From a virus, in IMG/VR virus record IMGVR_UViG_3300030450_000473, positions 1 through 24,034 of that record: a stretch of 24,034 nucleotides of DNA; one strand, given 5' to 3'. The notes beneath the pieces are model-generated. The model was not told the origin of the DNA and did no database searches. It was given only the letters and a program-made list of their open reading frames with translations. Positions within the stretch are counted from its first letter, which is position 1. Every line of letters starts with the position of its first letter. A program made the translations under genes and the position numbers. Positions 1,032 through 23,129 of this stretch are shown piece after piece.

Positions 1032-4000
1032 GTTACACCTCCAGATATTTCCATAAGCGTTATATATGATGTTGGTGCTTGGTTTTGACCTTCCCAAGAA
1101 GGCTGAGCCCAAGCTTGTCCGGAATCATCAGTAAACATTAAAGAGAATTGTGTTTTATATGTAAGAGCAGTTGAACCATCTCCACCAGGGTTTGTATCTA
1201 CAAAGGATATTGTATGCCTCCAAGTTTCATTGTTAGCACCATCTCCAGCTGTATGGAAGTCATTATAAAGGTTAGCATCGTTCTTTTTAGACTCCATAAC
1301 AATAGTAGTACCTCTCAATACGTTAACACCAAGACCTTGGTTGTTTGTACTATTCCTATCTCTATATTGACGCATTACTTGGTTAACAGTTACCAATACA
1401 TCACTATTAGTTGCAGGTGTAATACTTGCACTTAATCCAGTATCAGCCATAGATGTACTGGTACTAGAGGCTTCTGTAGTAGTTGAACCTTGTACAACTT
1501 GTAATATCTTACCACCAGCTGCTGCATCTTCAAAAGCAGGCGGTGATCCGGCACCCGTAGATGTTAATACTTGACCGTCTGTACCTGGACCTACTGCAAC
1601 TGGATCTCCAGAAGCATCATATGTAATTATCTGCCCATCTGTACCACCTGCCATCTTGGCAAGGGTTATTTGGTTATCAGCTATGTGAGCTGTATCGATA
1701 CTACCATCTGTATAATGTTCAGAATCTATAGCATCGTCAGCGATTTTAGCACCTGTAACAGCGTCAGCATTAATCTTAGCTGTGGTAACTGCATTGCTTG
1801 CTATATGAGCTGCATCAATACTACCGTCAGTATAATGTTCTGAGTCTAAGGCATCGTCTGCAATCTTAGCACCCGTTACAGCATCTGCATTAATCTTAGC
1901 TGTAGTAACCGCATTACTTGCTATATGTGCCGCATCTATACTAGCATCTACATAGTGTTCTGAATTGATAGAATCATCTGCTATATTATCGCCGTCTACA
2001 CAGTCATTAGCTAAATGAGCATGATCGATAGAAGCATCTGTATAATGTTCGGAGTCAATAGCGTCGTCTGCTATCTTTGCTCCAGTCACAGCGTCAGCGT
2101 TTATTTTAGCTGTTGTAACTGCATTACTAGCTATATGCGCAGCATCTATGGACCCATCTACATAGTGTTCTGAATCAATGATATCATCTGCAACATCAGA
2201 TGCTTCACCAATAAATTTAGTAGCTCCTAAAGCTCCAGTAGAAGAATTAAAGGTTAAATTAGAACCACTCTTTGGCTCTAAATCACCTGTAGCTGCTGTT
2301 ACAAATAATGGGAAACATGTTGTATCTGTACTTTCATCTGCAACTGTTATATCTGTTGGCGTACCACCTGTAGCGGCTGCCCATTTAACACCTGAAGCTT
2401 CACTGCTGTCTGCTGTTAATACATGATTATTTGAACCAACTCCTAAGATAGTTGCATCTCCAGATCCATCACCAACGACAATTTGTCCTTTAGTTCCAAG
2501 ATCTGAATGCATTATAGCACCAGCAGAGTTAACATTAGTAGCATCTGTTACATCAGCACCGTCTTCTACGTTAATCATAGTACGTAGATTGGCAGGTGTA
2601 ATCTCTTCAATAACACCAGCACCTGATGAATCTCTACCTAATACTCTATCTGTAGTTGATACATTCTGTATCTTAGCATAAGTGACTTGATCATCTCCAA
2701 TATGTGCAGTATCAACAGAGCCATCTGTATAGTGTTCAGAGTCAATTGCATCATCTGCAATTTTAGCTCCGGTTACTGCATCCGCATTTATCTTTGCCGT
2801 TGTAACTGCGTTACTCGCAATATGTGCTGCGTCTATACTTCCATCTACATAATGTTCAGAATCTATAGAATCGTCAGCTAAATCAGCAGTTAATGTACCT
2901 GTAACAGTTGCACCAGCTGAAGTAGTTTCAAACTTCTTACTGTTATCGTAATAGAGTTCTACATTACCGTCTGGAGCTACTTTTACTCCATTTTCGCCAG
3001 ACTTAGCCATTAAATGCATTGTACCAGTGGTATTGGTCAAATACCCATGGCTTCCATCATGGTAGAGCTCTAGATCATTATCTGTACCAAGTTGAGCTTT
3101 AACACTATCTCCAAACTGAAGAGCAGCATCTAATACTTCTATATGTTCAGCACCAACTGCATCGTCGGCTATCTTAGCTCCTGTAATAGCATCCGCAGCG
3201 ATCTTAGCTGTCGTAACATTTAAATCAGCTATATGGGCTGTATCGATTGATCCGTCAGTATAGTGTTCTGAATCTATTGCGTCGTCAGCTACCTTAGCAC
3301 CTGTTATACAATCTGCAGCTAAATGTGCAGTATCTATAGAACCATCAGTGTAGTGTTCCGAATCTAAAGCATCATCAGCAATTTTTGCACCAGTTATAGC
3401 ATCTGCAGCTATTTTAGCTGTAGTAACATTTAAGTCAGCAATATGAGCGGTATCAATAGATCCGTCAACATAGTGCTCAGAATTTATGGAATCATCTGCT
3501 AAATCAGCAGTTAATGTACCTGTTACTGTAGCTCCAGCTGAAGTTGTCTCAAATTTTGTAGAATTATCGTATCGAAGTTGTACGGCTCCATTATTACCTG
3601 CTTGTAGAAATACTTCGCTTCCAGCAGCGTTAGTTAAATATAAAGTACCATCAGTTTGTATGTTTAAATTTCCTGTATTATTATCAATAACAGAATTACT
3701 TCCATCATGGTAGATCTCTAAATCACTACCAGTACCGAATTTAGCTTTAACACTATCATTAAATCTAGTATCACCTGTTATTGTACCACCACTCCCATCA
3801 AGAGTAGTAGCTACAGTCCAAGAACTACCATCATAAATATATAATTTATTATCTGTAGTGTTGTAATATAGGTCTCCATCATCATTATTAGATCCTGGTG
3901 CAGAAGAAGCTATACGATACTTATCTGCAAAGTCATTTACAGTGGCTAGATTAGTTGCAACTGTATTAATATTAGCAATACTACCAGCTACTGTTGTTAC

Positions 4001-5320
4001 TTCTGTAGCTTTAGGTGTAAGTCTATGGAATTTATATTGATGAAGTGTGGTAGTTGTTTCTACAAGACAACCAAAACCAGCTGCTAATACTGTAGTTCCG
4101 CAATCTGTAATAGTAACATCACTACCTGAAATATTATCTAAAGTAGAGTCAGGTATTGTACATGTACCAGTACTGGGTGTATAAGAACTACCTAAGACAC
4201 CAATAGATACGATAGTACCTGCTCCATTATTAACGTCAGGATTAGCAGCAGGGAATTTTGCCTCACTTGCTAATGGTACAAAACCACCTACATCATCTAC
4301 TAAATCAATAATTCTATCATTGATAGCAGCCGTAGTAGCAATGGTTGTATCATTATCAGGGAAAGAATCACCGTCTTTAATGGTTTCAGAAGTACTTTGA
4401 TTAAAGTACCTTGCTTCAGCTGCAGATGTAGTGAAGAATGATGTATCGTTAACACTATATTCAGATTGCTCGCTATTGGTTACAATAGTTGCTGCATCAA
4501 AAGCTGCTGAATCAATAGCTCCATCAGCTATATGTTCGTTATCAATACATCCTGCAGCTAAATGCTCGGAATCTATTTGGTCATCAGCTATCTTTGCGCC
4601 TGTTATAGCGTCAGTGTTTATTTTAGCTGTAGTTACAGCATTACTTGCTATTTTAGCAGCTGTAATTTGACTATCTGCTATATGAACAGTATCAATACTT
4701 CCATCTACTATTTCATCAGAATCAACTGCATCAGCAGCCATCATTGCAGCTGTAACTGTACCTGTATCTCCTGTCGTTACTACCGTACCGGTGACATTAG
4801 GTAAGGTAATAGTGCGATCAGCTGTAGGATCAGTAACAGTAAGAGTAGTTTCGTAAGCATCAGCTGTAGCACCTTCAAATATAATAGTAGTATCCTCATC
4901 CATCGTAAGGTTACCAGTCAAAGTACCACCAGTTGTATCTAACTTTTGCTCCATTATCTCCATAGATTTTCTAAGGAGTTGTTTTTGATTATTATTTAAA
5001 TCATCTGATTTAATAGAAGAACCTGGAGTAAAAGTAGATCTAGCTGTTGGGTTACCTAAATCTGTAATAGGTTTTATAATGACAGTACCACTAGATAAAT
5101 TACCACCACCAATATGTATGGTTTTAGCTGTTGTGTCTACAGTATATTCACGGGGAGAAGCTGACTCGTTAATTGAAGAGCTGGTGAAAGTTAATGCTGT
5201 ATTATCTAATAATACAACTACTTCTGACGCTTTAAATGTATCGAAACTTCCTGAGTAACTGAATGTATTAGCTGTTCCGGTATTAGCGGAATAAGCTTTT
5301 GATATTTGTGCGTGTGCCAT
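1028..5320 (-). CDS. Long repetitive tail fibre (T7 gp17-like N-terminus)
   Basis: This 1430-aa protein is the host-recognition fibre. The first 130 or so residues resemble the T7 gp17 particle-binding domain (FSYSGSFDTFKASEVVVLLD near the start, then SSIKSDDLNNNQKQLLRKSM). The shaft has blocks of an alternating repeat built from GAKIADDxIDSEHYxDGSID and xAHIASNAVTTAKINADAVT, at about residues 200-280, 605-725, 810-880 and 1045-1220. Between them sit two copies of a module containing DLEIYHDGS and KFETTSAGATVTGTLTA (about 520-605 and 735-810). The last 140 residues are non-repetitive and are the likely receptor-binding tip. T7 gp17 is 553 aa, so this fibre is much longer. It starts 1 nt after the gp16-like stop and has no Shine-Dalgarno. 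The enrichment in Ser, Thr, Asp and Ala and absence of Cys-rich or enzymatic motifs fit a fibrous trimer. Confidence 0.93.
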   Translation of the reverse strand: MAHAQISKAYSANTGTANTFSYSGSFDTFKASEVVVLLDNTALTFTSSSINESASPREYTVDTTAKTIHIGGGNLSSGTVIIKPITDLGNPTARSTFTPGSSIKSDDLNNNQKQLLRKSMEIMEQKLDTTGGTLTGNLTMDEDTTIIFEGATADAYETTLTVTDPTADRTITLPNVTGTVVTTGDTGTVTAAMMAADAVDSDEIVDGSIDTVHIADSQITAAKIASNAVTTAKINTDAITGAKIADDQIDSEHLAAGCIDNEHIADGAIDSAAFDAATIVTNSEQSEYSVNDTSFFTTSAAEARYFNQSTSETIKDGDSFPDNDTTIATTAAINDRIIDLVDDVGGFVPLASEAKFPAANPDVNNGAGTIVSIGVLGSSYTPSTGTCTIPDSTLDNISGSDVTITDCGTTVLAAGFGCLVETTTTLHQYKFHRLTPKATEVTTVAGSIANINTVATNLATVNDFADKYRIASSAPGSNNDDGDLYYNTTDNKLYIYDGSSWTVATTLDGSGGTITGDTRFNDSVKAKFGTGSDLEIYHDGSNSVIDNNTGNLNIQTDGTLYLTNAAGSEVFLQAGNNGAVQLRYDNSTKFETTSAGATVTGTLTADLADDSINSEHYVDGSIDTAHIADLNVTTAKIAADAITGAKIADDALDSEHYTDGSIDTAHLAADCITGAKVADDAIDSEHYTDGSIDTAHIADLNVTTAKIAADAITGAKIADDAVGAEHIEVLDAALQFGDSVKAQLGTDNDLELYHDGSHGYLTNTTGTMHLMAKSGENGVKVAPDGNVELYYDNSKKFETTSAGATVTGTLTADLADDSIDSEHYVDGSIDAAHIASNAVTTAKINADAVTGAKIADDAIDSEHYTDGSVDTAHIGDDQVTYAKIQNVSTTDRVLGRDSSGAGVIEEITPANLRTMINVEDGADVTDATNVNSAGAIMHSDLGTKGQIVVGDGSGDATILGVGSNNHVLTADSSEASGVKWAAATGGTPTDITVADESTDTTCFPLFVTAATGDLEPKSGSNLTFNSSTGALGATKFIGEASDVADDIIDSEHYVDGSIDAAHIASNAVTTAKINADAVTGAKIADDAIDSEHYTDASIDHAHLANDCVDGDNIADDSINSEHYVDASIDAAHIASNAVTTAKINADAVTGAKIADDALDSEHYTDGSIDAAHIASNAVTTAKINADAVTGAKIADDAIDSEHYTDGSIDTAHIADNQITLAKMAGGTDGQIITYDASGDPVAVGPGTDGQVLTSTGAGSPPAFEDAAAGGKILQVVQGSTTTEASSTSTSMADTGLSASITPATNSDVLVTVNQVMRQYRDRNSTNNQGLGVNVLRGTTIVMESKKNDANLYNDFHTAGDGANNETWRHTISFVDTNPGGDGSTALTYKTQFSLMFTDDSGQAWAQPSWEGQNQAPTSYITLMEISGGVT
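1660..4725 (-). repeat. Tail-fibre shaft repeats (AKIADD/IDSEH units), DNA-diverged
   Basis: Four blocks of tandem protein repeats lie within the fibre gene, at about 4725-4480, 3500-3135, 2890-2680 and 2180-1660. Each unit alternates an AKIADDAIDSEHYTDGSID-type segment with an AHIASNAVTTAKINADAVT-type segment. The amino-acid sequence is nearly invariant, while the DNA of different copies differs at most third codon positions. Confidence 0.9.
2876..3765 (-). repeat. Two paralogous fibre modules (YHDGS ... KFETTSAG)
   Basis: The fibre region 3765-3495 encodes FNDSVKAKFGTGSDLEIYHD ... KFETTSAGATVTGTLTA, and 3115-2876 encodes FGDSVKAQLGTDNDLELYHD ... KFETTSAGATVTGTLTA. The ends of the two modules match closely and the middles differ, as in a duplicated shaft domain whose exposed face has diverged. 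Confidence 0.85.
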
Positions 5321-18352: not shown

Positions 18353-19369
18353 TTAGCTACGTGCAGAAGTTAGTTCAATGGCACCTGCAGGGTTGAGTGT
18401 TCCACAGCCCATTGCGAGGCGTCCTACGAGTACATCACCTTGATACAGTACGGATACGTCGCCACCTGTGACTTGGACTTGAGGTCCAATTGCTTCAACA
18501 ATACCAGCAGCATCGCGCTGATAGATGAGTCCACAGTGAGTAGAGAAGTCTCCATTGTAACTGTTATTCTCACCAGATACTGGGTTAACAGTACCAGCCA
18601 AGAATGGAAGGTTGTTAGAACGCTTAATAGAAATACCTGCGATTTCAACTAGACCTTCACCAGAGTTAAGGTTACCTTGTGAGTTACCATAGTCTCTGTT
18701 TAGGATGTTAGAAGAAACCTGAGATACAAGAGCGTAGTATTGACGTGGGTTTAGTACGGCTGTACGTCCTGTCTTAGGAAGGTTCTTTTCGTCAAGAACT
18801 GCAGCAGCTTCAAAGAAAGCGTCCACTAGTGCTTGAGCATTGTACTCCTTAGTCACACCAAGTTCGATGGTTGTACCACCTGGCTCAGGTCCTGGAGATG
18901 CAGTGATAGGATGAGCTTCCCTTGCAGCTAGTGCAATTGTACGGAAGACTTTCTTATCATAAGCCTCAGCTAGAGCGTGACCGATCTTAGCGGAGATCTC
19001 GGATCTTAGAGAGTAGTGTGCAAGAGTTTCATCTAGATCATAAACGAACGCAGAGCTGATCAGAAGGTCATCGCACTGGATGGTCTTCTCAGCTACTGGA
19101 GGATCGCCTGATCCAAGTATAGGTTCACCAGGAGTATGGTAAGCCGCTTGCATGCGTCCCGTGAAGATGAACTGTAGTGATTTACCGTTCTTCAGGGTAC
19201 GTCTTTGTACTGTTTCACGTGCGATTGTTGCGCTTTCATACGCCTTAAACAATTCACCACTGAACAGTTTCAAATAGGTTGCGTACTTGGTATCATATGC
19301 AACTGAACCGGCGGTGTTTGAAGCCGCCTTATTCAGTGCACCGAGTACTGACTGTGTGGCATTAGCCAT
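18353..19369 (-). CDS. Major capsid protein, T7 gp10-like
   Basis: This 338-aa protein matches the T7 major capsid (345 aa) in length and in features: MANATQSVLGALNKAAS, then YLKLFSGELFKAYESATIAR (N-arm and E-loop), RTLKNGKSLQFIFTGRMQAA, EPILGSGDPPVAEKTIQCDD, SAFVYDLDETLAHYSLRSEI in the spine helix region, and RTAVLNPRQYYALV in the P-domain. It forms the HK97-fold shell over the scaffold. There is no sign of a second, frameshifted product as with T7 10B: the stop is followed by the next gene. The ATG has no Shine-Dalgarno (AATATAATGG) and follows a 172-nt structured non-coding leader. Confidence 0.97.
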   Translation of the reverse strand: MANATQSVLGALNKAASNTAGSVAYDTKYATYLKLFSGELFKAYESATIARETVQRRTLKNGKSLQFIFTGRMQAAYHTPGEPILGSGDPPVAEKTIQCDDLLISSAFVYDLDETLAHYSLRSEISAKIGHALAEAYDKKVFRTIALAAREAHPITASPGPEPGGTTIELGVTKEYNAQALVDAFFEAAAVLDEKNLPKTGRTAVLNPRQYYALVSQVSSNILNRDYGNSQGNLNSGEGLVEIAGISIKRSNNLPFLAGTVNPVSGENNSYNGDFSTHCGLIYQRDAAGIVEAIGPQVQVTGGDVSVLYQGDVLVGRLAMGCGTLNPAGAIELTSARS

Positions 19370-19541
19370 TATATTAAAGAGTTTGTATGTGTTTACAGAC
19401 TCTCAACGTTGAGAAAATTTTTTCGAATATATGTTGTGGTCTATCCCACCGTCTAGACAGCTTAAGGGTATCCTCGTAAGGGCCGAAAGCCAAAGGAAAG
19501 GAGGTCCGACACTGAGGTGCCTCCAGTCCGAAGTAGTTAAT
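19370..19541 (-). promoter_or_regulatory. Non-coding, structured leader upstream of the capsid gene
   Basis: This 172-nt interval has no ATG-started minus-strand ORF. It contains a perfect 14-bp palindrome TCTCAACGTTGAGA (19401-19414), 31 nt upstream of the capsid ATG. It also has a GTCTA/TAGAC stem near 19435-19460. At 19500-19531 there are two mutually exclusive stems: ACTGGAG with CTCAGT (19511-19527), and GGAGG with CCTCC (19500-19524), the latter followed by a T-rich run. This may be a terminator or antiterminator for the 182-aa transcript, a promoter leader, or an mRNA processing site. The role is inferred. Confidence 0.55.
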
Positions 19542-20090
19542 TTACCACTTCTTATATACAATATTAGAACCAGCTAATAGATGGGTACCAGATCCAGTAC
19601 CTGTAATCAATGCAGCTTGGAAAACTAAGCTACTCTTTGTAGCAGCAGTAACTAGAACATTGAATTCTACACCTAAGAATAGGCCACTAGTATCAGCTCC
19701 AACATCAACTGTAATGACTTCGCCTTCACCGTCTACTGAATAAGTACCAGTACCTTCGATGTTAGCAGCAGCTGGAGTATCAGCAGCAGTTGATTCTTCT
19801 GCACGTGCGGTTACGTCTGTGTAGATAGTTGATGCAACAGCTGTTGAGCCATCAGATTGGGCTAAAGTAGCAACTCTAAACTTAAGTTCATTAGTATTAT
19901 CTGAATCATACCAGATAGTATACTTACCCATTATTCTTTCATAGCCACCAAGAGGTATGCTAAGAGCAGATTGGGTTGCTAAAGTAGTGTTGGCTAAATC
20001 AGATCCATCATTTGCTAAGATCTTTTGTTTGAAACCTTCAGCAGAATGTACGACTGTTCCATATGTCGTATTGTTATAAAAAGGAGCCAT
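19542..20090 (-). CDS. Hypothetical protein upstream of the capsid gene (182 aa)
   Basis: I do not recognise this 182-aa protein. It looks all-beta: alternating Thr/Val/Ser/Gly segments, very few basic residues, no signal peptide, no TM helix. The start (MAPFYNNTTYGTVVHSAEGF) has an A/T-only leader (TTTTTATTATGG). The C-terminal half, with GVEFNVLVTAATKSSLVFQA and ending in SNIVYKKW, reads as beta strands. It forms its own unit, bracketed by a terminator upstream and the capsid leader downstream. The predicted fold and adjacency to the capsid gene would suit a capsid decoration, knob or fibre-like protein, but that is inference. Confidence 0.75.
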   Translation of the reverse strand: MAPFYNNTTYGTVVHSAEGFKQKILANDGSDLANTTLATQSALSIPLGGYERIMGKYTIWYDSDNTNELKFRVATLAQSDGSTAVASTIYTDVTARAEESTAADTPAAANIEGTGTYSVDGEGEVITVDVGADTSGLFLGVEFNVLVTAATKSSLVFQAALITGTGSGTHLLAGSNIVYKKW

Positions 20091-20275: not shown

Positions 20276-20638
20276 TTAGAAGCTATACTTGGTGCCGATT
20301 TTTGTAGCCCAACTGTTATCGACATTACCGTCATTAGTTTGGACTGCAAGTTCTCCGTAGAAATCAAGCTTTTCTGTAGCTGCTACGGATGCACCAACTT
20401 TACCTGACACCTGAGTATCAGTATCGGCTGCGCCATCTGTTGCTACTATAGCTGGCCCGCCTTGAACATAATATCCAAAGCCATCATTTCCACCTTCGTA
20501 ACCTACATGAAGGTCGGTAGTGGAGCTTGTATAATCAGACCCTGTGTAAGAGCCGTTGTTCTCCACGTTCACGTAAACTCCTGCGAAAGCCGGAGCGGCA
20601 AAGAATGTGGAAGCGAGCGCTAGTGCTAATCTTTTCAT
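20276..20638 (-). CDS. Secreted small outer-membrane beta-barrel-like protein
   Basis: This 120-aa protein has a clear signal peptide (MKRLALALASTFFAAPAFA, cut after residue 19). About 101 mature residues follow in alternating beta-strand patterns: VYVNVENNGSYTGSDYTSST, DLHVGYEGGNDGFGYYVQGG, QVSGKVGASVAATEKLDFYG, and a last strand ending in TKIGTKYSF. The terminal aromatic Phe in a strand is the classic signal recognised by the BAM machinery. The size suits a minimal 8-stranded barrel of the OmpA/Opa type or a fragment of one. Similar proteins recur in cyanophages as far as I recall, without known function. A virion role is unlikely with a signal peptide, so it probably acts in the host envelope. 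It lies 9 nt after a tiny ORF and before a terminator. Confidence 0.8.
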   Translation of the reverse strand: MKRLALALASTFFAAPAFAGVYVNVENNGSYTGSDYTSSTTDLHVGYEGGNDGFGYYVQGGPAIVATDGAADTDTQVSGKVGASVAATEKLDFYGELAVQTNDGNVDNSWATKIGTKYSF

Positions 20639-20647
20639 TTAAATAAT

Positions 20648-20704
20648 TTAAGTTAGTTTCGTGTAAGGCACGCCGCGATACTTTAGTTGGATCTTTTTTT
20701 GCAT
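20648..20704 (-). CDS. Tiny DUF4278-like peptide (18 aa)
   Basis: The reading frame encodes MQKKIQLKYRGVPYTKLT and stop. The core LKYRGVxY is the signature of the DUF4278 domain found at the N-terminus of small cyanobacterial proteins. A good ribosome site, GGAG, lies 7 nt before the ATG. The stop is 9 nt before the barrel gene ATG, which itself lacks a Shine-Dalgarno, so the peptide could couple translation into it. The peptide is far shorter than usual DUF4278 proteins (often 50-100 aa), so it may be a mini-gene or a remnant. Confidence 0.55.
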   Translation of the reverse strand: MQKKIQLKYRGVPYTKLT

Positions 20705-20751
20705 TGATCTTCTCCATAGTACCACATCCCCGTTCCATGATGTGGTTTCAT
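20683..20751 (-). CDS. Possible 22-aa peptide overlapping the DUF4278-like ORF
   Basis: An ATG at 20751 opens a 22-codon frame (MKPHHGTGMWYYGEDQCKK and three further residues). Its Trp/Tyr/His-rich composition is unlike random frames here. It overlaps the DUF4278-like frame by 22 nt and lies over two inverted repeats, which partly explain its sequence. The Shine-Dalgarno is weak (GGGA). I list it as a possibility only. Confidence 0.2.
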   Translation of the reverse strand: MKPHHGTGMWYYGEDQCKKRSN

Positions 20752-20767
20752 GCGTTCCCAATGGGAA
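20722..20767. repeat. Two inverted repeats downstream of psbA
   Basis: CCACATC (20722-20728) and GATGTGG (20739-20745) form a 7-bp stem with a 10-nt loop. TTCCCA/TGGGAA (20755-20767) form a 6-bp palindrome with one central base. Neither has a T tract, so they look more like mRNA 3'-end stabilisers or operator-like sites than terminators. Confidence 0.6.
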
Positions 20768-20784
20768 TGAACGGACGCGGCGTA

Positions 20785-20820
20785 GTGAATTAGCCGAGGA
20801 CGAATTTTCGGGTCGGCTCT
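20785..20820 (-). repeat. Imperfect direct repeat, copy at psbA 3' end
   Basis: This 36-bp stretch matches 22055-22090 at 26 of 36 positions without gaps. It covers the last nine codons and stop of psbA. In both copies the arms GCCGA and TCGGC are conserved, so each can fold as a hairpin; at the psbA end the stem reaches 6 bp. Confidence 0.7.
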
Positions 20821-21845
20821 GCTGCTAGATCTAGTGGGAAGTTATGTGCATTTCTCTCATGCATTACTTCCATACCTAAGTTGGCTCTGTTTAAAACATC
20901 AGCCCATGTAGGTACTACTTTACCATTGGCATCTAAGATTGATTGGTTGAAATTAAATCCGTTAAGATTGAATGCCATAGTTGAGACTCCCATGGAGGTA
21001 AGCCATATGCAAACCACTGGCCAAGTAGCAAGGAAGAAATGAAGAGAACGAGAATTATTAAAGCTCGCATATTGAAAAATCAATCTACCAAAGTAACCGT
21101 GTGCAGCTACAATGTTGTACGTTTCTTCTTCTTGCCCGAACTTATAACCATAGTTCTGAGACTCAACGTCTGTTGTTTCTCGTGTAATAGAACTGGTGAC
21201 CAATGATCCATGCATAGCAGCGAACAAAGATCCACCAAATACCCCCGCAACTCCCAACATATGGAAAGGATGCATAAGGATATTATGTTCTGCTTGAAAG
21301 ACAAACATAAAGTTGAACGTTCCTGAGATTCCCAACGGCATACCGTCAGATAAACTTCCTTGCCCGAAAGGATATACCAGGAAGACTGCAAAGGCTGCAG
21401 ATACGGGCGCCGAATAAGCAACTGCTATCCAGGGTCTAGTTCCTAATCTATAACTCAGTTCCCATTGGCGTCCCATGTAGGCACAAATACCAATAAGGAA
21501 ATGGAATACAATTAGTTGATAAGGTCCTCCATTATATAACCACTCATCCATATTAGCTGCTTCCCAGATGGGATAGAAGTGCATACCGATAGCGTTGGAG
21601 GATGGTACAACAGCACCGGAAATGATGTTGTTACCGTATAGTAATGAACCTGCAACAGGTTCTCTTATCCCATCAATATCGACAGGAGGTGCAGCAATAA
21701 AAGCAATAATAAAACAAGTTGCTGCGGTTAGTAGTGCGGGGATCATGAGTACACCGAACCACCCCACATAGAGGCGGTTGTCGGTGCTAGTAACCCAGTC
21801 ACAAAAGCGGTTCCAATCGGACCTATCTAATGTGGCTGTTGTCAT
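20790..21845 (-). CDS. psbA: Photosystem II D1 reaction-centre protein
   Basis: This 351-aa protein is D1, the core subunit of photosystem II that is constantly turned over in the thylakoid. Standard residues are present with a minus-3 offset: Tyr158 (YZ, Y161), Asp167 (D170), His187 and His195 (H190, H198), His212 (H215), Ser261 (S264), His269 (H272), and His329, Glu330, Asp339 and Ala341 (H332, E333, D342, A344). The oxygen-evolving cluster, P680 and QB ligands therefore look intact. Gln127 equals position 130, the D1:1-like form. After Ala341 a 10-residue extension ([10 protein letters not shown]) replaces the roughly 16-residue cyanobacterial one. AGGAG lies upstream inside the hli end, and the hli stop abuts the ATG. 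No intron interrupts the frame. Phage D1 is thought to sustain photosynthesis during infection. Confidence 0.98.
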
Positions 21846-22031
21846 TTAAAAAACTCCTGGGATGATTTGACCTGTGAATATGTAAGAACCAAGGGCGGCA
21901 ATGAATCCAATCATAGCCATCTGACCGTTAACACGTTCAGCATTTTCGAAGTAGTCTACATCCATTACTTCTACTTGTGGTTCGGTGGCGTATCTATTGA
22001 AGCGTCCGCCTTGTTCTGTTGTGGTTGACAT
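21846..22031 (-). CDS. hli: High-light-inducible protein (Hlip), one-helix LHC-like
   Basis: This 61-aa protein has a polar N-terminus and a single chlorophyll-binding-type helix with AERVNGQMAMIGFIAALG, then TGQIIPGVF at the end, the usual Hlip terminus. Hlips bind pigment and protect photosystem II or its assembly intermediates in thylakoids. The LHC motif is normally ExxNGRxAM; here the Arg is Gln (residue 37), while Glu32 and Asn35 remain. Its stop directly abuts the psbA ATG, and hli-psbA form one transcript. It has no Shine-Dalgarno of its own; a 65-nt leader with a repeat copy precedes it. The gene pair is typical of T7-like cyanophages. Confidence 0.96.
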   Translation of the reverse strand: MSTTTEQGGRFNRYATEPQVEVMDVDYFENAERVNGQMAMIGFIAALGSYIFTGQIIPGVF

Positions 22032-22343: not shown

Positions 22344-23129
22344 TTAAAATTGTACGTTAGAACGTTCTAGTTTATCGTATAAATCCTGACGATAAGCAGG
22401 GTCTCTATCATATCGAGGATCAGACATGGCAGCAACTACTTCAGCTTGGCTACGGAATGCATCCTGTGTTCTAGCTGCTTTACCTGTTAACATCCTACCT
22501 TCATAACCTTCTTGATTTTCATACTCTGCTCGTAATCCTGCAACTGCCATTTGAATTGTACTAGTGTCACCATTATTGACAATATTATTAAAAGCATTTA
22601 ATTTATTTTCTGCTAAATTTTCAGCAGCCCAATTGGTTATTTTATTATATTCTGATTCACCACCTGCTGCATTATAAACTTGATTTATTTCAGCATCAGT
22701 AAGATCAGATACTTCTGTTTGAGTTTTTACAGGAGCGTCAGCTTGTATTTCCATATAAGCTTTTACAAGATCAGTACTACTCATCTCTGTAAATTTTTCC
22801 ATGGTTGCTTCGGAGATCTTACCATCATTTTCGTAATACTCTTTTGAAGCATCTGTTATTAACGATACAGCTGGAGATGACTCTACTTCTTCCTCTGTGT
22901 CCTCTTTAAGCGAAGCTGTTTCGTCTTCATCTTCCGTCTCCTTAGAGCCAAGCTTCTTTTGTAATTCAATGTAGGCATCCTCTAAGTCTTCAGCATTTCT
23001 AAATTTGCCAGCAAGAAGTTCGTTCTCTTCTTGTCCTAACTTCTCAGCTACCTCTAGAGAATTCTGCTCATCCTCAGTGAATTCGGGAGCGTCAGCAGGG
23101 GTGGGATCATACGTCAGTTTTTCCGTCAT
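22344..23129 (-). CDS. Capsid assembly scaffold, T7 gp9-like
   Basis: This 261-aa protein is very acidic and helical, with the start TEKLTYDPTPADAPEFTEDE, a Glu/Asp-rich stretch near 60-85 and a middle of long helices. It ends in a basic-plus-aromatic C-terminus (YRQDLYDKLERSNVQF), the usual shell-binding tail of phage scaffolds. T7 gp9 is 307 aa and lies between portal and capsid, the same order as here, except that hli-psbA and others now separate it from the capsid gene. The ATG has AGGAA 7 nt upstream and overlaps the upstream small gene by 23 nt. It guides capsid shell assembly and leaves the mature head. Confidence 0.9.
   Translation of the reverse strand: MTEKLTYDPTPADAPEFTEDEQNSLEVAEKLGQEENELLAGKFRNAEDLEDAYIELQKKLGSKETEDEDETASLKEDTEEEVESSPAVSLITDASKEYYENDGKISEATMEKFTEMSSTDLVKAYMEIQADAPVKTQTEVSDLTDAEINQVYNAAGGESEYNKITNWAAENLAENKLNAFNNIVNNGDTSTIQMAVAGLRAEYENQEGYEGRMLTGKAARTQDAFRSQAEVVAAMSDPRYDRDPAYRQDLYDKLERSNVQF

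Follow-up and report, generated by a model that had tools for sequence, protein, structure and literature searches.

Hundreds of marine cyanophages carry a gene whose product has neither an established function nor an established structure. One copy is found at 20276-20638 (minus strand) of a 24,034-nucleotide stretch of viral DNA (positions 1 to 24,034 of the IMG/VR record IMGVR_UViG_3300030450_000473; hereafter the window), where it lies between psbA and the major capsid gene. This location raises the question of whether the protein acts on the infected cell or forms part of the particle. The initial annotation had described it as a secreted, beta-barrel-like protein that modifies the host outer membrane rather than joining the virion.

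The open reading frame is genuine: it starts with ATG, encodes 120 amino acids and evolves under purifying selection, with dN/dS of 0.08-0.11 in comparisons with five close relatives. Its product matched the Pfam family PF24653, 'Cyanophage outer membrane protein like beta barrel' (Phage_OMP), with 143.7 bits for a cutoff of 27 (E 4e-42). The alignment covered the full length, residues 4-120 corresponding to positions 5-122 of a model of length 122, and PHROG 417 was matched as well. The product is a member of this already known cyanophage family, whose function is unproven; from profile matches, predicted structure and alignment, we describe it as a predicted exported six-stranded beta-barrel of the outer-membrane type. 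By tblastn, the family was present in 459 of 50,697 phage records, all from cyanophages or marine/uncultured viral records, and 0 of 14 control genomes had a PF24653 family gene. The records use several names for it, namely gp222 (Syn9, NATL1A-7), T4-GC241, 'DUF680 domain-containing protein' (PhCOG173) and 'outer membrane autotransporter barrel'. The DUF680 name is unsupported, because Pfam never returned that model for the window protein or for the DUF680-annotated relatives scanned. The OmpX/OmpA-like model PF13505 (OMP_b-brl) did not match the window protein at E<=1, and its matches to relatives were weak and below cutoff (23.5 bits versus 28.7 for the S-SM1 copy). A PDB sequence search with the window protein alone returned only chance matches to antibody linkers, and a profile search returned none.

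No cellular homologue was seen in one scan of cellular genome contigs, which gave only phage-like contigs, binned in two MAGs (one actinobacterial, one of Dehalococcoidia) and in a Nonlabens assembly. In the last of these (NZ_RMVE01000006.1, 188 kb, Nonlabens xiamenensis 1Q3), gp220, Phage_OMP, nrdC and phoH are arranged as in cyanomyoviruses; this contig is probably a cyanophage genome inside a Bacteroidota assembly, either as contamination or as a co-sequenced phage. The other two, PBPX01000064.1 and PBPE01000100.1, are pieces of cyanopodovirus genomes that had been assigned to Tara Red Sea MAGs labelled 'Actinomycetota' and 'Dehalococcoidia'.

The N-terminus of the protein has the pattern of an exported protein. 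Codons 1-19 (20582-20638, minus strand; MKRLALALASTFFAAPAFA) form a predicted Sec signal peptide, in which a rule-based scan recognized the n-region MKR, the hydrophobic stretch LALALASTFFAAP and the cleavage site A-F-A/G, with predicted cleavage between A19 and G20. The pattern MKR...AFA/G is retained in nearly all relatives. The mature part comprises 101 residues and is highly acidic (net charge -9). The mean beta moment of its alignment is 1.09, compared with 0.70 +/- 0.10 in shuffles, none of 2000 of which reached this value. The protein ends with Y-S-F (residues 118-120; 20279-20287, minus strand), which is of the C-terminal beta-signal type: of 47 relatives, 46 end in F and all have Y, F or W at position -3. 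These observations bear out what had first been read from the sequence, i.e. a signal peptide followed by about 100 residues of beta strands and a terminal YSF.

We considered the possibility that the protein is a soluble beta-barrel or a lipocalin-like binding protein of the periplasm rather than an outer-membrane protein, which would be in keeping with its small size, with the charge of -9 of its mature form and with the periplasmic location of PstS and PhoA, the neighbours of a sister subfamily described below. The strands have one polar and one hydrophobic face, and a soluble barrel would have the hydrophobic face conserved and the polar one variable. The opposite was found, the polar face being better conserved in five of the six strands and equally conserved in the sixth, which argues for a barrel that sits in a membrane and has a polar core. 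The C-terminal aromatic-X-F (46 of 47) and the prominence of membrane barrels among the best fold matches also speak against a soluble protein, which we regard as very improbable. The protein is probably located in the outer membrane, as had initially been proposed; the signal pattern, the amphipathic strands, the C-terminus and the fold matches are all consistent with an exported barrel, whose predicted extracellular loops are variable and acidic.

The number of strands differs from what had been anticipated. The initial annotation expected eight and proposed structure prediction as a check; AF2, run with 31 relatives, predicted six (residues 20-31, 36-50, 54-67, 73-86, 91-100 and 109-118), with a pLDDT of 77 and a pTM of 0.63 for a shallow alignment in which three of the five models were poor. 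From the single sequence, the model was unusable (pLDDT 41). A Foldseek search of the PDB returned, among its best matches, FapF, OmpA and its minimal platform, OprF (TMq 0.57), OmpG and Ail, every one of them an outer-membrane barrel; these are evidence for the fold class and not for homology, because the E-values were only 0.04-0.2 and non-membrane chains were present among the matches too. Each of the three hairpins bears a Tyr-Gly pair (Y22/G46, Y57/G82 and Y94/G115). In eight-stranded outer-membrane barrels, the mortise-tenon Tyr-Gly motif is found on strands 5/6 (PMC5542473), and this pair corresponds to Y94/G115 of the window protein. Eight strands make up the smallest single-chain outer-membrane barrel known (PMC6340704); for the window protein, the sequence, the model and a mature length of 101 residues all favour six, and this predicted six-stranded barrel is the main new element of our analysis. 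An open porin was rejected as unlikely because of the small size of the protein.

To compare the members of the family, we used a tree and a residue comparison of 47 proteins, which separated two subfamilies. The window protein falls in subfamily A, together with other copies from podoviruses and with those that Syn9, S-SM1 and S-TIM4 carry next to nrdC. Subfamily B comprises the copies found immediately upstream of pstS in Syn19, P-SSM2, S-SM1 (where the order is OMP-pstS-phoA) and S-H68, as well as the copy of the podovirus P-SSP2; the S-SZBM1 copy clusters with it on a long branch. From A to B (41 or nearly 41 proteins versus 6), four charges of the interior are reversed: E26 and E96 become K, and K80 and K113 become E. 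In addition, H44 is replaced by R and Q59 by E. Residue 26 is on strand 1 and residue 113 on strand 6, while residues 80 and 96 are on strands 4 and 5, respectively. This paired reversal suggests salt bridges across strands and therefore a closed barrel of six strands, though as a single split of the tree it is not a statistical proof. An enzyme of the PagP, PagL or OMPLA type was also rejected, since the interior polar residues, other than the Tyr and Gly, are not conserved across subfamilies and the charges are swapped.

These data also bear on the possibility that the six-stranded chain is a subunit, at least two copies of which assemble into a larger barrel, forming a genuine pore for anions such as phosphate. 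With six strands, the chain is smaller than the eight-stranded minimum known for single-chain barrels (PMC6340704), in line with a subunit, and the linkage of subfamily B to pstS implies transport. Yet, the reversal of E26/K113 together with that of K80/E96 suits a contact of strand 1 with strand 6 within one chain, and we consider such an assembly to be rather improbable. With somewhat less than even confidence, we propose instead a natural, single-chain transmembrane beta-barrel made of three Tyr-Gly hairpins, below the eight-strand minimum, that exists as two subfamilies with reversed core interior charges, one of which is connected with the acquisition of phosphate by the host.

We next turn to the locus. 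On the minus strand of the window, the gene order is scaffold, a hypothetical gene, hli, psbA, Phage_OMP, a terminator, a second hypothetical gene and the major capsid gene. The two landmarks of this variable slot are the capsid assembly (scaffold) gene upstream (22344-23129, minus strand; assigned by synteny with NATL1A-7) and the major capsid gene downstream (18353-19369, minus strand; 97% identical to that of NATL1A-7 at the protein level). Homology identified hli (21846-22031, minus strand), which encodes a high-light-inducible protein, and psbA (20790-21845, minus strand), which encodes the D1 protein of photosystem II and is directly upstream of the Phage_OMP gene. A terminator-like hairpin with an 11-bp stem and a T-rich tail directly follows the reading frame (20259-20230, minus strand; fold z -4.4), and the 151-nt gap between psbA and the reading frame contains no terminator-like site. 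Such sites were found 3' of the gene in 19 of 96 relatives, whereas shuffled sequences had them in 2.2% and the upstream side of the gene in 2 of 87 cases. Judging from the sequence, the gene is probably the last one of a transcription unit that it shares, as the initial annotation had it, with hli and psbA.

The psbA-OMP gap (20639-20789) also holds an inverted repeat, CCACATC...GATGTGG, without a T tract. Between the Phage_OMP and capsid genes, a 182-aa protein is encoded (19542-20090, minus strand), which has a 67% identical counterpart in NATL1A-7 and occurs in several metagenomic contigs; it had no match in Pfam, PHROG, NCBIfam or PADLOC. NATL1A-7 has an annotated tRNA-Gly (4606-4676) between this gene and the capsid gene. 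ARAGORN found no tRNA anywhere in the window, in which the corresponding segment is 19370-19541. Elsewhere in the window, a tail-fibre-like gene of 1430 codons contains tandem repeats of 120 and 90 bp (1680-1988 and 3226-3411).

The closest cultured phage, NATL1A-7, carries its copy (CYIG_00007, 'gp222') at the corresponding place, flanked by psbA/hli and by the major capsid gene, with hli and psbA swapped relative to the window. Compared with the window, the Phage_OMP protein is 53% and the hli product 55% identical, whereas identity is 89-100% for the capsid protein and the products of the two small genes that follow its gene, indicating that the cassette is either exchanged or fast-evolving. 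In P-SSP2 (4959-5318), it is a copy of the pstS type, subfamily B, that occupies the podovirus hli-psbA slot; A and B therefore appear to replace each other at one locus. The gene is present in the cultured podoviruses 9515-10a, NATL1A-7, P-SSP2, S-RIP1, S-RIP2, S-SBP1, S-TIP37 and P-SCSP-R27W and absent from P-SSP7, P-GSP1, S-CBP1, Syn5, P60, SS120-1, S-CBP2, S-CBP42 and S-TIP28, which are viable without it; in these 17 phages it occurs only together with psbA. The S-TIP37 copy, which matches the family, is HOT80_gp30. Among 34 metagenomic podovirus contigs with both flanks (scaffold and major capsid), the slot contained psbA in 8 and lacked it in 26. A test of the full contig for 12 of the psbA-less ones (fragments of up to 37.8 kb) found no psbA elsewhere on them. 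The Phage_OMP gene is thus an accessory gene of the scaffold-capsid slot, linked with psbA in many but not all cases. Because 26 of 34 contigs keep the gene there without psbA, its position proves neither a host-modifying nor a virion role. The argument that it belongs to a psbA set, from which a host-modifying function had been deduced, was therefore rejected, real as the association is in cultured phages; the host-facing accessory role itself appears more likely on other grounds.

These grounds come mostly from orthologues. ORF224 of S-TIM4, which adjoins nrdC and is a PF24653 member by profile scan, acquired 13 different mutations, many of them disruptive. They arose only where populations had been evolved on Synechococcus WH8102, and together they reached a frequency of about 100% in each of these populations (PMC6224464). 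Its product was not among the particle proteins identified by mass spectrometry, and the authors considered it nonstructural and cited a suggested role in phosphate limitation (PMC6224464). Dispensability and a host-specific cost, as shown by others for this orthologue, fit an accessory protein acting on the envelope better than a part of the virion. We nevertheless considered a minor virion-associated protein, on or in the particle, that would be expressed with the adjoining scaffold and capsid genes. The position of the gene in podoviruses, which is conserved and immediately precedes the major capsid gene, agrees with this, as does the detection of the S-SZBM1 orthologue, a family member by profile scan, in CsCl-purified virions (2 peptides, 25% coverage, emPAI 1.06; PMC9146016). 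Presence in purified virions had been named at the outset as an observation that would count against a host-side role, and the two proteomes differ in this respect: the protein was found in S-SZBM1 and was absent in S-TIM4, whose loss-of-function phages are viable. Shed or co-purified outer membrane could account for the former. Further arguments against a virion protein are the predicted Sec signal peptide and the membrane-type surface, the neighbours in the myoviruses inspected (nrdC, pstS, talC or sugar genes), and the survey of Sullivan et al., in which DUF680 was found in 15 of 16 cyanomyoviruses and set apart from virion structural genes (PMC3037559). A virion protein is, in our judgement, improbable. 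The portions seen of papers on cyanopodovirus core genes and on P-limited infection by S-PM2 do not mention the protein.

For what an envelope protein of this kind might do, the initial annotation had named blocking superinfection, altering permeability and aiding nutrient uptake. The main rival to our interpretation is superinfection exclusion, in which the barrel, once inserted in the outer membrane of its host, would hide or obstruct the receptor that competing phages use. The outer-membrane type and the variable acidic extracellular loops are compatible with this, and so are the rapid exchange of the gene between near-identical phages (53% identity to NATL1A-7 for a capsid protein at 97%), the host-specific cost in S-TIM4 (PMC6224464) and the fact that some copies, in S-H68 and P-TIM68, adjoin glycosyltransferase or sugar genes. 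However, subfamily B sits with pstS and phoA, and PADLOC models gave no match at E<=1. The linkage of this sister subfamily to pstS/phoA favours nutrient uptake, and superinfection exclusion seems unlikely, while deserving to be kept in mind. The phosphate link is a property of subfamily B, and the window protein belongs to subfamily A; a role in phosphate acquisition is proposed here only tentatively.

Taken as a whole, the explanation that we consider likely is that of an accessory, nutrient-linked outer-membrane-barrel protein of the infected cell, belonging to Phage_OMP subfamily A and not needed for the virion. The gene would probably be transcribed with hli and psbA during infection, and its product probably secreted through the host Sec pathway and cleaved after A19. 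The Omp85/Bam machinery of the host would then probably fold it into a small six-stranded barrel in the outer membrane of the infected cyanobacterium, with short acidic loops pointing outwards. The interior is probably closed by the conserved salt-bridge network, which would make an open porin unlikely. The product of this exchangeable gene would alter the host envelope during infection without being required for building virions, and this change would most likely aid the acquisition of nutrients (phosphate) in poor water. If the six-stranded barrel is real, the lower limit for outer-membrane barrels drops, and barrel folding could be studied on a natural protein of minimal size. Should the envelope role hold, the host outer membrane joins photosynthesis, carbon and nucleotides among what cyanophages remodel, with a tie to phosphate limitation.

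Within PF24653, the window copy is that of a T7-like podovirus, of subfamily A and placed in the hli-psbA-to-capsid slot, and its signal peptide, strand pattern and C-terminus are as in the rest of the family. With barrels of the OprF/OmpA/OmpX type, it has in common the up-and-down meander, the polar core, the Tyr-Gly pair on strands 5/6 and the aromatic C-terminus; unlike these, which have eight strands and about 135-177 residues in the matched chains, it has six predicted strands and 101 residues. Phages are known to place proteins in the host envelope during infection, as exemplified by the outer-membrane morons Lom of lambda, Cor and Llp, mostly from coliphages. The protein proposed here would resemble them, by description, as a phage-made component of the host envelope.
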